In this document: positions 2,116 through 26,352 of the stretch, in pieces | Position numbering within the stretch: position 1 is the stretch's first letter | Layout of the letters: every line of letters starts with the position of its first letter | Source of the DNA: an uncultured bacterium | Lineage (GTDB): Bacteria; Bacillota_I; Bacilli_A; RF39; UBA660 | DNA length: 32,137 bases | Assembly: GCA_949293285.1 (NCBI GenBank) | Contig: CASFCU010000055.1 | Location: 1-32,137, forward strand | Direction: 5' to 3' | Translations under genes and position numbers: made by a program | Notes under the pieces: model-generated | The model's database searches: none | What the model was told of the DNA's origin: nothing | What the model saw: the letters and a program-made list of their open reading frames with translations, nothing else

Positions 2116-3267
2116 TTAATATTCAGTGGGAATAACATTGAATACTAATCTTTTTATATTGTCTAAATCGTGATTATATAATGTTAGTTTTTTCTTAAAA
2201 CTTAATTTAGTATTAATTGGATCAAGCTTAGTTAAGTTATAGCAAATTTTTCTTATAAGAGCTAGGTTCTTTAAAGCATTTTCTTCCTTACATAAACTCC
2301 AGTCTTCTCTAAAGTGCACGTCTAAAATCCAATGTAAATTATTTTCTATAGACCAATGACCTCTTGTATAATTTGCAAACTCTTTTGCAGACAATTTCAA
2401 ATCAGAAATATAAAACTTTTCTTGTATAGAAACCTCACCATTTATTTCTCTATAATTTCGTGTCATACCTATTAAATTTAAATTTTTCCAATTCTCTTTA
2501 CCATAAATAAAATCAACGTTATATGTTATAAAATGTTCTCTTCTTTCTATTCGCCCGTGATCTTTGCTTAGTTCAACATGTTGATAAATATCTTTTAGTT
2601 CTTCTTTATTTTTTAATGCAAAATCAAAATATTCTTTTAATTCAGAATATAAAAGTTTTTGATTGTTTTTAACGGCTAAGCAATAATGTCCTTCTTTATC
2701 AATAATTTTTTGAGTGATATCTTTTTGGCATCCCATTGCGTCTATAGTAACAATGGAATTAGTAATATCAATTAAATCTAGCAAATCAGGTATGGCAGTA
2801 ATTTCATTAGATTTATCGTCAACTTTTACTTGACCTATTGAGATTCCTAAGTCAGATAAGAAGGCAGAAACAACATAAGGAATATTACCACCGTTGATTT
2901 TGTCAGTAGCACTTTTGATAGCTTTGCCGTCAATAGGAATAAGTTTATATTTGTTTTTCAAAAGTTTATTCTTTTCTTCAATAATACTTTTTACCCAAGA
3001 AACAAAAATATTCATAAATTCTTCTGGATTTATTAATGAATAAATTCTTAATAGTGTATCAGGAGATGGTGTGCCATATTCTAATCCCAATTCGTTTGTG
3101 AAGTATTCTTCATTAAGTTTTAAAAAATATGCAATATTTTCTGCATCATAATGACCTGCTAGAATACCATAAATAGACATTACAATACAGTCAGTTAATT
3201 CGTGCTTTAATCCTCTGTTATCTCTAGTATCAGTTAATTCATTAAAAAACATAATAAGACTGTTCAT
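2116..3267 (-). CDS. ISAs1-family DDE transposase
   Basis: 383 aa, full length for the family. The N-terminal part (FFNELTDTRDNRGLKHEL, then GHYDAENIAYF) is the conserved ISAs1 H-repeat/DUF4338-like start. The DDE residues are visible: D113 (PIDGK), D176 (TIDAMG, followed by CQKDI) and E308 (GHWSIENNLHW). It cuts and joins the IS ends. The start is set at ATG 3267 because AGGATGTGAT (3281-3272), nearly the full anti-SD complement, ends 4 bases before it; an upstream in-frame GTG at 3276 overlaps that site. No frameshift or stop is present, so the enzyme looks active. Confidence 0.95.
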   Translation of the reverse strand: MNSLIMFFNELTDTRDNRGLKHELTDCIVMSIYGILAGHYDAENIAYFLKLNEEYFTNELGLEYGTPSPDTLLRIYSLINPEEFMNIFVSWVKSIIEEKNKLLKNKYKLIPIDGKAIKSATDKINGGNIPYVVSAFLSDLGISIGQVKVDDKSNEITAIPDLLDLIDITNSIVTIDAMGCQKDITQKIIDKEGHYCLAVKNNQKLLYSELKEYFDFALKNKEELKDIYQHVELSKDHGRIERREHFITYNVDFIYGKENWKNLNLIGMTRNYREINGEVSIQEKFYISDLKLSAKEFANYTRGHWSIENNLHWILDVHFREDWSLCKEENALKNLALIRKICYNLTKLDPINTKLSFKKKLTLYNHDLDNIKRLVFNVIPTEY

Positions 3268-3329
3268 TATTATCACATCCTATTATAATTTTAACTTACT
3301 TTTTGTTATATTCATAATACTATTGACAT

Positions 3330-19743: not shown

Positions 19744-20907
19744 ATGAAGAAATTTATTATAATATTAAGCTTACTTTTATGTATAACACCAATTAGTACC
19801 TGGGCAGTAACAGACAGTGAAGAAACATCATTATTGGAAAATGCTAAAAGTGGAATTCTAGTAGAAGCCTCTACTGGAGAAATCTTATACGAAAAAAACA
19901 AAGATGAAATAGTATCAATAGCCTCTCTTACCAAAATGGTTGCTCAAATAATCATATTAGAGAATATAGAAAGTGGTAACCTAAAATGGGATGAAATGGT
20001 AACTACAAGCAGCAATGCTGCAGGAATGGGGGGAACACAAATTTGGCTTACCGCAGGAGAAAAAATGAGCGTAGAAGATCTATTTAAAGGATTAACAATG
20101 GCAAGTGCTAATGATGCAACTGTAGCATTAGCAGAAAGAATAGCAGGAACAGAAGCTGCTTTTGTAAAATTAATGAATGATAAAGTAAAAGAATTAGGTT
20201 TAAAAAATACAACATTTAAAAATTGTACTGGATTAGATGAAGAAGGACATCAATCTACAGCATATGATCTATCTGTAATAGCAAGAGAATTATTAAGTCA
20301 CGAAGAAATATTAAGATTTTCATCCGTATATGAAGACTATATAAGAAAAGATACGCCAAATAAATTCTGGGTAGTTAACACAAACAAATTAGTAAGATTC
20401 TATTCTGGTGCTGATGGACTAAAAACTGGATTTACAGATGATGCAGGATACACAATGGCCGTAACTGCTAAACGAGATGACATGCGTTTAATTGCCATAG
20501 TATTAGGAGAAAGCGTAAGTAAGGTACGAAACGAAGAAACGACAGAATTACTGGATTATGGATTTAACACTTATAAAATTGATTTAGTCAAACCGAAAGG
20601 AAGTGTAGTGGATAAAGTCAAAATAGATAAGGGAAGTCAAGAAGAAATAGAAATTATAACAAAAAATGATATATCTATATTAAATAAAAAAACAGATGCA
20701 AGCCTTAACTATGATACAAAAATAACCGTAAACAACATAAATCTTCCTATAGAAAAAGGAGATGTAGTAGGCAAAATAGAAGTATTATATAATGATAAAG
20801 TCATAAAAACAGATGACTTAATAGCAGGAAGTTCAGTAAAAAAAATAAACTACTTTAAATATCTTTATAACAATTTAAAAGATATCATCAATTGTTCATT
20901 TTTCTAA
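19744..20907 (+). CDS. dacF: D-alanyl-D-alanine carboxypeptidase, DacF-like (S11, PBP5 family)
   Basis: 387 aa. A signal peptide (cleavage after about residue 21) is followed by the serine peptidase motifs SLTK (61-64), SAN (121-123) and KTG (227-229), a C-terminal beta domain and a tail (FKYLYNNLKDIINC) likely used for membrane attachment. It removes terminal D-Ala from pentapeptides and controls cross-linking. In Bacillus, dacF lies directly upstream of spoIIAA and is forespore-expressed; the position here, one gene away from spoIIAA-sigF, supports the DacF name over a vegetative DacA. TTAGGAGG precedes the ATG. Confidence 0.9.
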   Translation: MKKFIIILSLLLCITPISTWAVTDSEETSLLENAKSGILVEASTGEILYEKNKDEIVSIASLTKMVAQIIILENIESGNLKWDEMVTTSSNAAGMGGTQIWLTAGEKMSVEDLFKGLTMASANDATVALAERIAGTEAAFVKLMNDKVKELGLKNTTFKNCTGLDEEGHQSTAYDLSVIARELLSHEEILRFSSVYEDYIRKDTPNKFWVVNTNKLVRFYSGADGLKTGFTDDAGYTMAVTAKRDDMRLIAIVLGESVSKVRNEETTELLDYGFNTYKIDLVKPKGSVVDKVKIDKGSQEEIEIITKNDISILNKKTDASLNYDTKITVNNINLPIEKGDVVGKIEVLYNDKVIKTDDLIAGSSVKKINYFKYLYNNLKDIINCSFF

Positions 20908-20994: not shown

Positions 20995-23121
20995 ATGTTT
21001 TGTACTAATTGTGGGATGAAAGCAGAAGCAAATGATAAGTTTTGTAATGAATGTGGAAGCCCTTTAAGAAAAGCATCCCTGTCAAATAACAATATAGATG
21101 AATTCAAAAAAGCAGATGGTTTTACTAACATAATCACATCACAAAAAGGATCTAACAATAACTGTAATAATTTTACATATGATAAAAACTATACAAGCAA
21201 TTATCATTCTAGAAAAAAGAATAAAAAATTAAAAACCATATTAGCAGTTTTAACAATCGTTTTGTTATTAAGTATATTAACCATAGTATTTATTAATAAA
21301 GATACCATATTTAATAAATACTCCGGCAAAAGAACCATTATGATTTACATGATAGGATCCGATCTGGAATCAAAATATGTAGCAGCAAGTAATGATATAA
21401 AAGAGATGATAAATTCACAAGCAGATTTTAAAAATATAAATATTCTTTTATACACTGGAGGAACTAAAACCTGGCATATGGAAGAAATTTCTAGTGATGA
21501 AAATGCTATATTTAAAGTAACAGCTAGTGGATTAGAAAAAGTAGAAGAATATCCAATAATGGACATTGGCAACGCCGATACATTGACAACTTTCATAGAA
21601 TATGGGTATGAAAATTACAAAGCAGAACATTATAGTTTAATTCTATGGAATCACGGTGGAGGCCCTATTTATGGTTATGGATACGATGAATACAATAAAA
21701 CCAACTCATTGACTCTTTTAGAATTGAAAACAGCATTAGAAAATAGTCCATTTCATGCTAATAACAAATTAGAATTCATAGGATTTGATGCTTGCTTAAT
21801 GGCTACAGCAGAAATTGCCTACATTCTATCTGATTATGCTGACTATATGATAGCATCTCAGGAAGTAGAGCCAGGATCAGGTTGGAATTATTCCTTTCTA
21901 GGAAATATTAAACCTTCAACAACAACTTATGAGATAGGAAAGAATATTGTAGATAGCTACATCGAGTATTACAGTAATAGAATAAATGGTAAAGGAATTT
22001 CACTATCTTTATTGAAATTAAATAGAATGGATTTTCTAGAGCAAAATCTAAACTCTTTATTTAAAGAGCTCGATCAAGATTTAATTATTGATTTTTCTTC
22101 TATCTCAAGAAGTAGAAGTAATTCAAAAACTTTTGGAAAAGTAACTGCTACAGGTTATGATTTGGTAGATCTATATGATCTATTAGAGCAGTTGCCAAAA
22201 AAATATTACGAAAAAGTAAACTCCCTAAAAAGTGTAATAGAAGACTTAGTGGTTTACCAAAAAACGGATTTAGTAGGGGCACATGGAATCTCTATTTATT
22301 TCCCATACGAAAATAAGGATCAAATCAGTGAAATTATTTATTTATACAAATATTTTAATTTTGCCTCTGAGTATACAAATTTTATAGATAATTTTTCTTC
22401 AAAATTAACGGGAACGAGATTATACAATTGGAATTTAGAAAATACCATTCCACAAGTAAAAGAAGAAGGACTGATAGAAGTTTCTATACCAGAAGAAGTA
22501 GCAGAAAATTATAGTGGTGCAAGTTATATAATATTTGAAAAGACAGATGATGATTACTATATTCCTAGATTTAAAGGAACCGATGTTACCTTAAATAATA
22601 CCACTCTTAGTACAACTGTTGCCAAAAAAGCTTTAGTAGCAACGGATTCTGATAAAAACGAAGTATACATAACAGCACTAGAATCAGAAAAAGGAAGTAA
22701 CTATACCAAATATATTATTCCAGCTACTTTGCAAAGATGGGAAGAAGATTTTATAAGTGATTTTGAAATGGTATCAGTATATCTACAGTTGGTAGTAACA
22801 GAAGAAAACCCAAACGGACAAATATCCGGGGCTATTGAAATAACAGAAAATGGAATATCACCAAAAGTAATCATAGATTTAGAAGAGTGGGAATGGATTC
22901 AACTTTTAACCTATAAATATAAAATCTTCGATGAAAACGGAAATTATACAACAAACTGGTTAAGTTCAGCAGAAATAACTGGATTAGAAGAAGAAATAAA
23001 TAAAGGGTTTACCTTAGAATTTAAAGATTTAGATGTTTCAAAAGAATATTATTGTTTATTTACAATTACCGATAGTCAAGGAAACAATTATACAACAAAC
23101 GTAGTAAAAGTAAATCAATAA
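20995..23121 (+). CDS. Zinc-ribbon, membrane-bound clostripain-family (C11) cysteine protease
   Basis: 708 aa. The order is an N-terminal zinc ribbon (C3, C6, C17, C20: CTNC...CNEC), a polar linker, a membrane helix (about 79-101), a C11 caspase-like domain and C-terminal beta-rich domains ending in a fibronectin-like repeat (TYKYKIFDENGNYTTNW...). Catalytic residues are H220 in LILWNHGGGP and C267 in FDACLMA, so it looks active; C11 enzymes cleave after Arg or Lys. The ribbon is cytosolic and the protease extracellular if the helix spans the membrane once. It sits between dacF and spoIIAA, where Bacillus has nothing, with its own promoter and terminator. Confidence 0.88.
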   Translation: MFCTNCGMKAEANDKFCNECGSPLRKASLSNNNIDEFKKADGFTNIITSQKGSNNNCNNFTYDKNYTSNYHSRKKNKKLKTILAVLTIVLLLSILTIVFINKDTIFNKYSGKRTIMIYMIGSDLESKYVAASNDIKEMINSQADFKNINILLYTGGTKTWHMEEISSDENAIFKVTASGLEKVEEYPIMDIGNADTLTTFIEYGYENYKAEHYSLILWNHGGGPIYGYGYDEYNKTNSLTLLELKTALENSPFHANNKLEFIGFDACLMATAEIAYILSDYADYMIASQEVEPGSGWNYSFLGNIKPSTTTYEIGKNIVDSYIEYYSNRINGKGISLSLLKLNRMDFLEQNLNSLFKELDQDLIIDFSSISRSRSNSKTFGKVTATGYDLVDLYDLLEQLPKKYYEKVNSLKSVIEDLVVYQKTDLVGAHGISIYFPYENKDQISEIIYLYKYFNFASEYTNFIDNFSSKLTGTRLYNWNLENTIPQVKEEGLIEVSIPEEVAENYSGASYIIFEKTDDDYYIPRFKGTDVTLNNTTLSTTVAKKALVATDSDKNEVYITALESEKGSNYTKYIIPATLQRWEEDFISDFEMVSVYLQLVVTEENPNGQISGAIEITENGISPKVIIDLEEWEWIQLLTYKYKIFDENGNYTTNWLSSAEITGLEEEINKGFTLEFKDLDVSKEYYCLFTITDSQGNNYTTNVVKVNQ

Positions 23122-23163: not shown

Positions 23164-23210
23164 GGAATTTTTTTTCTGAAAAGGAATAATATAAGTATCG
23201 ATAAATATAT

Positions 23211-23217
23211 TGTCGAA
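23211..23217 (+). promoter_or_regulatory. Spo0A box 1
   Basis: TGTCGAA within TTGTCGAATTT, a perfect core of the Spo0A-P binding site, 94 bases before the spoIIAA start. Confidence 0.7.
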
Positions 23218-23246
23218 TTTTAATATCTAAAAAAAATAAGATTATT

Positions 23247-23253
23247 TGTCGAA
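23247..23253 (+). promoter_or_regulatory. Spo0A box 2
   Basis: TGTCGAA within TTTGTCGAATT, exactly 36 bases after box 1 and in the same direction. A TATAAA (23258-23263) just downstream may be the -10 of the spoIIA promoter, with the box overlapping the -35 zone. Confidence 0.7.
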
Positions 23254-23304: not shown

Positions 23305-23643
23305 ATGTTAAAAATTGACACAATTTATAAAAAAGGAATACTTTTTGTAAGATTATATGGAGTTATAAACAAAACAACGAAATTAGAAATAGAAAAAACT
23401 TTAGAAAGTGCAATAAGTAAAGTAGGAATAAAATATCTATTACTAAATTTTGACAATATTTACTATATAAGTAGTGATATAACAAAAATAATAGGAAAAT
23501 GGAGCCAAAATATTATAAAAAATGGAGGTAAATTCTTTATATGTGGATATGACAAAATACAAAAAAAGTATTCTATAGATGTATCAAAATCTGTATTTGA
23601 AATGAAAGATGAAATCAGTGTATTTAATATGATAAAAATATAG
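23305..23643 (+). CDS. spoIIAA: SpoIIAA-like anti-sigma factor antagonist (STAS domain)
   Basis: 112 aa. The STAS fold is visible: FVRLYGVINKTTKLEIEKTL, then YLLLNFDNIYYISSDI, then GGKFFICGY. In Bacillus, SpoIIAA frees sigma-F by binding the anti-sigma kinase SpoIIAB and is phosphorylated on the serine of DSSG. Here that site reads ISSD (S56, S57): serines are kept but the preceding Asp and the following Gly-Leu are changed, and one residue appears to be missing. AAGGAGGAG is well placed. sigF starts 9 bases after the stop; no spoIIAB lies between. Regulation by Spo0A is indicated by the two boxes upstream. Confidence 0.82.
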   Translation: MLKIDTIYKKGILFVRLYGVINKTTKLEIEKTLESAISKVGIKYLLLNFDNIYYISSDITKIIGKWSQNIIKNGGKFFICGYDKIQKKYSIDVSKSVFEMKDEISVFNMIKI

Positions 23644-23652
23644 GGTGATAAT

Positions 23653-24348
23653 ATGAATGATAATGAAATGGCATCTTTATGTAAGAAATTAGTATATTCG
23701 ATAGCACGAAAATATAGTTATAATGAAAGTGATTTAGAGGATTTATATCAAGTTGGAAATGTTGGATTGTCAAAAGCCATGAAAAACTACAAAGAAGATA
23801 AAAATGCAAAATTTTCTAGTTATGCACATTTTTATATTGAAGGGGAAATCATAAAATATGTAAGAGGAAATAGGTTGATAAAAGTAAATCAAGAATTATC
23901 AAACTTGAAAAAAGAAATAAATAAAGCTAGAGAATATCTGACACAAAAATACATGAAAGATGCAACAATTGAAGAAATTGCATTGTTTTTAAACAGAGAT
24001 GTAAGTGAAGTAGAAGAAGCAATAAATAGTAGTTTATCAGTAAGAAGCCTTGACTATGAACTGAATGCTGATGAAGAAGGAAAAGATATTAACTTATATA
24101 ATTACGAAGCATATATTGAAAAAGGCTATGATGAAAATATTCTTACAGTAAGAGAAGAAGTAAGAAAGTTAGATCCAAAAGAAAGAAGAATAATACTCTC
24201 ACGATATTATCAAGATAAAAGTCAAAGTGAAACATCTAAGGAACTGGGCATGACACAGGTTCAAGTATCTAGAACAGAAAGTAAAATATTAGCCAAAATA
24301 AGGACAAATATTACAGACAAAAGTCGAGTAATGAGTAAATCTATTTAG
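23653..24348 (+). CDS. sigF: Sporulation sigma factor, sigma-F (sigma-F/G group)
   Basis: 231 aa, shorter than the 255 aa of Bacillus. Region 2 is seen as LVYSIARKYSYNESDLEDLY and KFSSYAHFYIEGEIIKYVR, region 3 as NLKKEINKAREYLTQKYMKD and region 4 as LDPKERRIILSRYYQDKSQS followed by MTQVQVSRTESKIL; the MTQVQVSR helix is typical of sigma-F, -G and -B. Neighbours (spoIIAA before, spoVA after) favour sigma-F, the first forespore sigma; sigma-G cannot be excluded by sequence alone. GGTGAT (23644-23649) lies just before the ATG. Translation is probably coupled to spoIIAA. Confidence 0.88.
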   Translation: MNDNEMASLCKKLVYSIARKYSYNESDLEDLYQVGNVGLSKAMKNYKEDKNAKFSSYAHFYIEGEIIKYVRGNRLIKVNQELSNLKKEINKAREYLTQKYMKDATIEEIALFLNRDVSEVEEAINSSLSVRSLDYELNADEEGKDINLYNYEAYIEKGYDENILTVREEVRKLDPKERRIILSRYYQDKSQSETSKELGMTQVQVSRTESKILAKIRTNITDKSRVMSKSI

Positions 24349-24564: not shown

Positions 24565-25008
24565 ATGGAAAAAAAAGATTATAAAAAGATAGTAGATAAA
24601 CACAAAGCAAAAGAAACTAGAGTTCAAAATGGAATAGTAGCCTTTTTAACGGGAGGATTAGTAGGTGTCATTGCCGAATTTTTAATACAAGTATATTCCT
24701 ACTTTCTAGATATATCAACACAAGATGCTTCCGTATTTATGATTGTTACTTTGATTTTTATAGCAGCACTATTTACAGCATTAGGGTTCTTTGACAAATG
24801 GGTTAATTTTGCAAAGTGCGGACTAATTATTCCCATAACAGGATTTGCTCATTCGATGATGAGTTCTGGTATGGAATACAAAAAGGAAGGGCTAATTTAT
24901 GGAATTGGCAGTAATATTTTCAAATTAGCTGGATCTGTCATTCTTTATGGAGTAGTAAGTGCATGGTTTTTTGGAACCATAAGATTCCTATTATTTGGAG
25001 GTGTATAA
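24565..25008 (+). CDS. spoVAC: SpoVAC, dipicolinic acid channel membrane protein
   Basis: 147 aa. Hydrophobic segments alternate with the conserved GLIIPITGFAHSMMSSGMEY and EGLIYGIGSNIFKLAGSVIL regions. SpoVAC is a membrane component of the SpoVA complex that imports dipicolinic acid into the forespore and releases it at germination. It is the first gene of a tight three-gene operon (1 base to spoVAD). AGGTGAT precedes the ATG. Confidence 0.93.
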   Translation: MEKKDYKKIVDKHKAKETRVQNGIVAFLTGGLVGVIAEFLIQVYSYFLDISTQDASVFMIVTLIFIAALFTALGFFDKWVNFAKCGLIIPITGFAHSMMSSGMEYKKEGLIYGIGSNIFKLAGSVILYGVVSAWFFGTIRFLLFGGV

Positions 25009-25009
25009 A

Positions 25010-26005
25010 ATGACATTTAAGTTTAATGAGGTATATATAAATAATACAGCCACCGTAGTAGGTCCCTATGAAAAAGAAGGACCACTTGGTAATAAATTTG
25101 ATAAAACTTATGACGATTTATATACAGGAGAAAAATCATGGGAAAAATCGGAAACAAAACTATTAGAAGAATCTATTGATATTTTGTTGAATAAAACAAA
25201 AAAGAAAAAAGATGAAATAGATTTAATCATAGCAGGAGATCTTCTAAATCAAATATCAGCCTCATGTTATGGTGTTGAAAAATTTAAAATTCCTTTTTTA
25301 GGAATTTATAGTGCATGTACTACAAGCACAGAAGGAATATTAATTGCATCTACTTTCATTGATAATAAAAGAATCAAAAATGCTATTGTATCCGTATCAT
25401 CACATAATATGGCTAGTGAAAAACAATTTAGAAATCCTACAGAATATGGAGCTCCAAAACCAAAAACAGCAACTTTCACTACTACTGGTGGAGCAAGCGT
25501 TTTACTTCAATCCACAAAAACGAAAGTAAAAGTAGAATCAGCAACAATTGGTAAAGTTTGCAATATGGATCAGACTGACCCGAACAACATGGGAGCAGCC
25601 ATGGCAGTAGCAGCAGCGGATACGATATATAACCATTTAAAAGACACAAAAAGAGATATCAATTATTATGATTTAATCATCACTGGTGATTTAGGAATCT
25701 ATGGAAAAGATATCTTAATCGAATATATGAAAAGTGAATACGGATTGGATATTTCTGCTAATTATAACGACAGTGGCGTAATGATTTATAACACAGAAAC
25801 GCAAGAAGAAGTCTTAGCAGGTGGAAGCGGACCAGCATGTAGCCCTTTGGTAAATTATTCCTACATCATACCATTATTAGAAAAGAAAACTTTAAATAAA
25901 GTTTTAATAGTAGCAACCGGAGCATTATTCTGTCCAACATTTGTTTATCAGAAACAACCTATACTATCAATTAGTCACGCAGTAAGTTTGGAGAGTGTAA
26001 AATGA
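25010..26005 (+). CDS. spoVAD: SpoVAD, DPA-binding thiolase-fold protein
   Basis: 331 aa. The start is ATG 25010, one base after the spoVAC stop, with GGAGGTG 6 bases upstream; an in-frame TTG at 24995 overlaps that site. The thiolase fold shows IYSACTTSTEG (C103), then ATFTTTGGASVLL and DSGVMIYN. SpoVAD binds dipicolinic acid at the inner membrane face of the spore. It lies between the two membrane partners, overlapping spoVAE by ATGA. Confidence 0.95.
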   Translation: MTFKFNEVYINNTATVVGPYEKEGPLGNKFDKTYDDLYTGEKSWEKSETKLLEESIDILLNKTKKKKDEIDLIIAGDLLNQISASCYGVEKFKIPFLGIYSACTTSTEGILIASTFIDNKRIKNAIVSVSSHNMASEKQFRNPTEYGAPKPKTATFTTTGGASVLLQSTKTKVKVESATIGKVCNMDQTDPNNMGAAMAVAAADTIYNHLKDTKRDINYYDLIITGDLGIYGKDILIEYMKSEYGLDISANYNDSGVMIYNTETQEEVLAGGSGPACSPLVNYSYIIPLLEKKTLNKVLIVATGALFCPTFVYQKQPILSISHAVSLESVK

Positions 26006-26352
26006 CATATTTAAATTCATTTTTATTTGCAGGATTTGTCTGTTTAATAGGACAAATCATATTAGATAATACAAAATTAACAGCTGGTCATATTACAAGT
26101 ATGTTTGTAGTAATCGGAGCCCTTTTAGATACCTTTAGCATCTATGATGAAATCATAAAATACGTAGGTGGAGGAGCCTTAGTACCAATTACATCGTTTG
26201 GACACTCTTTAATACATGGAGCACTATCAAAAGCAAATGATTTTGGTGTAATAGGTCTAATCATGGGAATGTTTGATCTTACTGCAGCAGGAATCACTTC
26301 CGCTATCATATTTACTTTTGTATTTACACTAACATTTAACCCAAAAGATTAA
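26002..26352 (+). CDS. spoVAE: SpoVAE (SpoVAEb type) membrane protein
   Basis: 116 aa. Several membrane helices, with GGALVPITSFGHSLIHGALS and FDLTAAGITSAII mirroring the matching region of SpoVAC, its paralogue. It is the third component of the DPA channel. It overlaps spoVAD by four bases (ATGA), indicating coupled translation. With no spoVAA, spoVAB or spoVAF here, the set is the minimal C-D-E type found in clostridia. No terminator is seen before the next gene, 43 bases away. Confidence 0.93.
   Translation: MTYLNSFLFAGFVCLIGQIILDNTKLTAGHITSMFVVIGALLDTFSIYDEIIKYVGGGALVPITSFGHSLIHGALSKANDFGVIGLIMGMFDLTAAGITSAIIFTFVFTLTFNPKD

Follow-up and report, generated by a model that had tools for sequence, protein, structure and literature searches.

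Activation of sigma-F by SpoIIAB, SpoIIAA and SpoIIE is the textbook first cell-fate step in spore formation. The stretch of DNA analysed here (32,137 nucleotides, hereafter the window) is contig 55 of a draft genome of 1.217 Mb in 90 contigs, 97.6% complete, from the family UBA660 of the order RF39, whose many members are uncultured bacteria of the gut. It carries a spoIIAA-like gene followed almost immediately by sigF, which raises the question of how sigma-F is controlled when the gene expected between them is missing. The features of the locus are as follows.

19744..20907, + strand: dacF-like D-Ala-D-Ala carboxypeptidase gene (PF00768)
20995..23121, + strand: clostripain-family (C11) protease, zinc-ribbon and transmembrane, between dacF and spoIIAA (PF03415)
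23305..23643, + strand: spoIIAA-like gene for a STAS protein of 112 aa with phosphorylation and contact residues lost (profiles, model, alignment)
23644..23652, + strand: 9-nt spacer GGTGATAAT at the place expected for spoIIAB, containing the sigF ribosome-binding site
23653..24348, + strand: sigF, 231 aa, a divergent sporulation sigma factor F (profiles, alignment, tree)
24565..25008, + strand: spoVAC, the downstream neighbour as in Bacillus (TIGR02838, 155 bits)
24995..26005, + strand: spoVAD (NF006160, 423 bits; PF07451)
26002..26352, + strand: spoVAEB (TIGR02839, 135 bits)

The window order is that of Bacillus, dacF-spoIIAA-[spoIIAB]-sigF-spoVA, minus spoIIAB and minus spoVAA/AB; dacF is the gene that precedes spoIIAA in Bacillus. 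Both reading frames were recovered as originally predicted, with the 9-base gap between them. The junction reads TAG-GGTGATAAT-ATG and its sole content is the ribosome-binding site of sigF, confirming that spoIIAB is missing from the locus. The proposed comparison with related genomes showed that the STAS-sigF arrangement without spoIIAB recurs, with a like junction in 30 other genomes. The distance from the STAS gene to sigF was −14 to +29 nt in 31 genomes, the exception being G012, where the two genes lie about 1.45 kb apart.

The membrane C11 protease, whose zinc ribbon is N-terminal, precedes spoIIAA/sigF in the genus of the window, with or without spoIIAA (window 20995-23121; L060, L061, L062, L080-L083, L085), and was not seen at the sigF locus of other genera. 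Elsewhere in the window, an apparently intact insertion-sequence gene encodes a DDE transposase (2116-3276, − strand; PF01609 with DDE_Tnp_1_assoc).

The original prediction offered two readings of the missing gene: that spoIIAB had moved and co-evolved, or that control of sigma-F dispenses with the partner switch of SpoIIAB. The genome-wide profile search for a SpoIIAB/RsbW-type GHKL kinase that was suggested as a check found no SpoIIAB in the 97.6%-complete genome. The SpoIIAB model TIGR01925 matched only frames of 382–768 aa, the length of histidine kinases or other GHKL proteins, together with a piece of an AgrC gene truncated by a contig edge; PF13581 gave no match above cut-off. That piece, a GHKL frame of 141 aa at C29, is SpoIIAB-sized but was rejected as a candidate: it lies next to an AgrB-like gene and represents the 3' end of an AgrC-type kinase gene that the start of the contig truncates.

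SpoIIAB was found in none of 48 family genomes from the closest relatives (0/48) and in none of an evenly drawn sample of 291 family genomes spanning 150 genera (0/291), in which almost every PF13581 match lay in a frame as long as a histidine kinase. Among 31 outgroup genomes of the same class, nine encoded SpoIIAB, and all nine also encoded a SpoIIE-type phosphatase. A SpoIIE-type PP2C domain was detected in 6/291 family genomes and not in the window genome; in four of the six, a GHKL domain lay in or beside the same reading frame, unlike the architecture of SpoIIE. At 80 named public-genome loci, canonical sigF was accompanied by the IIAA and IIAB genes unless a contig end intervened, and family-type sigF was accompanied by the family STAS gene or stood alone. 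The window genome was thus found to have neither SpoIIAB nor SpoIIE. Relocation and co-evolution of spoIIAB finds no backing in the genome or the family, and control of sigma-F without the partner switch is supported, with the changes in SpoIIAA described below pointing the same way. On the evidence of these profile searches, the loss of SpoIIAB and SpoIIE appears to be family-wide and ancient and not specific to the window genome.

The four genomes with paired domains (G140, G163, G317 and G224; L210-L213, L249-L252) carry PP2C and GHKL in one frame of about 625–670 aa, apparently split over two frames in G224. It is possible that this frame encodes a self-contained partner-switch enzyme.

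The protein encoded upstream of sigF has a STAS domain (PF01740, 28.6 bits against a cut-off of 22.6). Its best equivalog is SpoIIAA (TIGR02886), but at 34.8 bits against a curated cut-off of 114.75; a PHROGs scan gave no match. An AlphaFold2 model built on an alignment of 32 relatives had a pLDDT of 91.8, and its top five PDB matches in Foldseek were all SpoIIAA chains (1th8, 1thn, 1til, 1tid; TM 0.80–0.83). The gene also has the position in the sigF operon, and hence the synteny and ancestry, of spoIIAA.

Across the family, the STAS gene was present in 212/291 genomes and 121/150 genera, mostly as the gene immediately before sigF. About a quarter of the genomes (~27%) were without it while sigF persisted, and half of the genus of the window (g1) lacked it (absent in G001-G004, G006 and G011; kept in G000, G005 and G007-G009), which argues that SpoIIAA is not an indispensable regulator of sigma-F. 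Three genomes without sigF, SpoIIR and SpoIIGA (G016, G043, G046) were also without the STAS gene. Within the genus, dN/dS for the STAS gene was 0.09–0.53, of the same order as for sigF, and 0.25 for the closest pair (G008/G009), most other pairs approaching saturation. SpoIIAA is thus kept under purifying selection.

The g1 members without spoIIAA retain sigF, spoVA and mostly the Spo0A boxes, and constitute a natural deletion in which sigma-F can be studied in the absence of the STAS protein, for comparison with the members that have it.

To characterize the remodelling of SpoIIAA, 78 family and 45 canonical sequences were aligned and 111 columns were ranked by loss of constraint. Ser58 in the published numbering, the phosphorylated residue and the first serine of the DSSG motif, ranked first: it is serine in 45/45 canonical sequences and in only 9/78 family members, with threonine in a further 5/78, so that a phosphorylatable residue occupies the position in 14/78. 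Arg67 ranked second (44/45 canonical vs 0/78 family) and Glu21 fourth. Arg67 is reported to belong to both the kinase (SpoIIAB) and the phosphatase (SpoIIE) interfaces (PMC11418112), and partner switching depends on Glu21 clashing with D148 of SpoIIAB-bound sigma-F (PMC7340262); neither contact residue is conserved in the family. The chance that all three of these preselected columns would rank among the first four is about 2/100,000, with the Ser58–Arg67 stretch having been inspected before the ranking. The turn-shaping residues Asp57 (66/78) and Gly60 (58/78) are mostly retained in the family and not in the genus of the window, and a few members, such as G044, retain the DSSG motif.

Conversely, six residues that are variable in canonical SpoIIAA (L2, G11, F14, R16, C80 and E103) are fixed in 69–77/78 family members and map to the beta1-beta2 hairpin, the end of beta4 and the C-terminus. 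The two sets are about equally diverse, with mean pairwise identities of 0.35 and 0.34, and the shift in residues is therefore not explained by closer relatedness. Retention under selection together with newly fixed residues argues that SpoIIAA has been re-used and is not just degenerate.

For the window protein itself, the earlier claim that DSSG had been lost and reads ISSD holds in its first part, since the DSSG signature is absent, whereas the reading ISSD depends on a gapped alignment. Phmmer pairs the two serines of the window protein with those of SpoIIAA by means of compensating one-residue gaps, giving ISSD for DSSG, and the ungapped family alignment gives SSDI. A serine lies at or beside the Ser58 position in the window species, but the position is occupied by S, T, T and C (or N) in the species most closely related to it. 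Replacement of Ser58 by a phosphomimetic aspartate was considered and dropped, as Ser58 is the first serine of DSSG and the alignment is ambiguous in this genus.

The sigma factor has likewise diverged. The best sporulation equivalog of the window sigF is TIGR02885, at 159.5 bits against a curated cut-off of 321.45, and the gene is linked to dacF and spoVA as expected of SigF. In a tree of 33 family sigF, 24 canonical SigF, 19 SigG and 4 SigE-like sequences, the family sequences fall within the canonical SigF of Bacilli, with SigG separate; ultrafast bootstrap support was 79 for the joint SigF group and 93 for SigG, and low for the family group itself.

Sigma-F was then compared over 221 columns in 47 canonical and 99 family sequences, with a B. 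subtilis SigF sequence that we assume to be correct used for numbering only; it agrees with the published position of E39. E149 ranked third and D150 eleventh in loss of constraint, with Glu at 149 in 39/47 canonical vs 25/99 family sequences and Ser in the window. The equivalent residue in sigma-G, E156, is a site of SpoIIAB sensitivity (PMC3174212). One outgroup that bears SpoIIAB already has Gln at position 149, and the loss of E149 is therefore supporting evidence only; SigG gave no information on this point, as outgroup SigG also lacks Glu at the equivalent position. Taken at this strength, the alignment is suggestive of relaxation of sigma-F at a known SpoIIAB contact. Gln98, Asp134 and Lys215 (window numbering) are present in 90–95/99 family sequences and variable in canonical ones, and are candidate sites of a new contact.

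The remainder of the early pathway was largely retained. Among 48 family genomes, a SigF-type match was found in 44, SpoIIR in 44, SpoIIGA in 45 and Spo0A in 41. In the window genome SigG and Spo0A are intact and SigE, SpoIIGA and SpoIIR are present by profile, SpoIIGA directly 5' of sigE and SpoIIR after prfA- and prmC-like genes. This retention of the other early regulators indicates that the losses hit one module and not sporulation at large. SigG (340–357 bits), SigE (309–326 bits) and Spo0A (282 bits) of the window genome have diverged much less than SigF and SpoIIAA, which places most of the divergence in the sigma-F module. Near sigG, two tandem paralogues of about 130 aa with similar Cys-containing ends (L219:14578-15372) are possible surface or coat proteins.

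Upstream of spoIIAA, two copies of a predicted Spo0A box were identified, TGTCGAA being the well-established core of such boxes.

23210..23217, + strand: Spo0A box TTGTCGAA, upstream copy, its TGTCGAA core beginning 94 nt before the spoIIAA start
23246..23253, + strand: Spo0A box TTGTCGAA, conserved copy, its TGTCGAA core 58 nt before the spoIIAA start

These are the only two occurrences of TTGTCGAA in the whole window, vs 0.58 expected. TGTCGAA lies upstream of 37/42 family operons vs 5% of random stretches, and in a larger set upstream of 77/88 operons, most at 57–65 nt from the start codon. The box is also found 5' of sigF in members without spoIIAA. Canonical operons had the exact TGTCGAA in 8/45 cases, a count that rests on approximate start positions and leaves out other Spo0A-box variants. 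A scan for consensus promoters and terminators gave no more matches than chance. The putative Spo0A-box promoter, as judged from its sequence and position, is the best-supported remaining control on sigma-F.

With both SpoIIAB and SpoIIE lost, the sigma-F cell-fate step must be controlled in some other way. We consider it probable that the switch was removed cleanly and anciently, that SpoIIAA was re-used with a new partner and that Spo0A gates sigF. Under this explanation spoIIAB would have been lost cleanly from the spoIIA operon before the family diversified, along with the opposing phosphatase SpoIIE. Sigma-F would no longer be under phosphorylation-dependent partner switching, and the main gate on its production would be transcription driven by the Spo0A-box promoter. 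The descendant of SpoIIAA, produced along with sigma-F, would contact a new partner independently of phosphorylation, the candidates being sigma-F itself, RNA polymerase or another protein. The Spo0A promoter alone does not account for forespore-specific sigma-F, and the literature searched gave no report of a family member seen to sporulate.

A more specific version, which we hold as a tentative possibility, makes the SpoIIAA descendant a direct regulator of sigma-F, either anti-sigma factor or co-factor, translationally coupled to it: a former anti-anti-sigma factor after the loss of the middleman. The short or overlapping junctions between the two genes, the residues newly fixed in the hairpin, at the end of beta4 and in the C-terminus, the purifying selection and the absence of the STAS gene from sigF-less members would all fit. 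However, adjacency may be simply inherited, and the genes are separated in G012; sigF is kept without the STAS gene in about 27% of the genomes and half of g1. An AlphaFold2 model of the read-through STAS-sigma-F chain gave a pTM of 0.40 with no confident docking, in a weak test that lacked a sigma-F-only control. The full form of the idea, that the family makes compartment-specific transcription without an anti-sigma-F kinase or phosphatase, with SpoIIAA as a direct, phosphorylation-independent partner of sigma-F (or its RNA polymerase) and timing set by Spo0A, we regard as rather doubtful.

We think it unlikely that sporulation is a decaying relic in the family, with sigF and spoIIAA on their way out through ordinary genome reduction. 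The genomes are small (mostly 0.9–1.6 Mb), spoIIAA has been lost repeatedly and many sporulation genes are gone in related orders (PMC10868615). According to a 2025 predictor, every predicted spore former has spoIIAB and RF39 has a sporulation probability of 0% (PMC12536801). Decay is nevertheless difficult to reconcile with SpoIIR, SpoIIGA and Spo0A being kept in 41–45/48 relatives, with window-genome SigG and SigE scores near the SigF/G/E equivalog range, with dN/dS well below 1, with a Spo0A box fixed in position over tens of genera and with a STAS gene in 121/150 genera. Replacement of SpoIIAB by a relocated or strongly diverged GHKL kinase, whether a histidine-kinase domain or the fused PP2C-GHKL protein, is very improbable: histidine kinases do match the SpoIIAB profile weakly and PP2C and HATPase_c_2 domains are neighbouring or fused in four genomes, but no small GHKL protein was found in the window genome, the PF13581 matches of the family are nearly all of histidine-kinase length, the PP2C-GHKL pair is confined to 4/291 genomes and conservation is lacking at S58, R67 and E21, which a kinase of this kind would engage. 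That a contig gap in this draft of 90 contigs, or the misassembly of which the original prediction had warned, deleted spoIIAB can be discounted, because G005, G007, G008, G009 and about 26 other genera share the arrangement and SpoIIAB was found in none of the 291 genomes.

The clean and ancient removal of the switch thus remains the preferred explanation. A lineage of about 150 genera that appears to have shed the switch module and kept the parts upstream and downstream of it would be a natural experiment on the purpose of the switch, and the question of a spore former without an anti-sigma-F kinase becomes directly testable. It is also a caution that spoIIAB is unsafe as a marker of sporulation ability.

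The absence of spoIIAB and spoIIE in RF39 is not new, since Field et al. (2024) reported from annotation, in a single sentence, that both are reduced or absent in the order and predicted spores with different regulation (PMC10868615). Their account is one of presence and absence by KEGG orthologue, and the operon, the remodelled SpoIIAA and sigma-F and the promoter are not in its text; a search of the open-access literature found no earlier description of the rebuilt SpoIIAA, of the changes in sigma-F or of the Spo0A-box promoter. A named relative, Candidatus Coprosoma (L156), which has been placed in the order RF39 (PMC8035907), has the same STAS-sigF arrangement. Galperin et al. (2012) found spoIIAA, spoIIAB, sigF and spoIIE in all of the spore-forming bacilli and clostridia that they compared (PMC3533761). 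Segmented filamentous bacteria (Candidatus Arthromitus) are likewise spore formers of the gut, with small genomes and a streamlined set of sporulation genes, but they have kept SpoIIAA, SpoIIAB and SpoIIE (PMC3533761). The rsbV-rsbW-sigB module resembles the window locus in having a STAS protein encoded near a sigma factor of the SigB/F/G family; it differs in including the RsbW kinase, whereas the window sigma factor profiles best with the SigF group and its locus is linked to spoVA. A further counterpart is the spoIIAA-spoIIAB-sigF system of B. subtilis with SpoIIE, with which the window shares the dacF/spoIIAA/sigF/spoVAC-AD-AEB order, the STAS fold, SigF orthology and control of the operon by Spo0A (predicted here), and from which the family departs in lacking spoIIAB and spoIIE, in having lost the Ser58 context, Arg67 and Glu21, and in its strongly diverged sigma-F.
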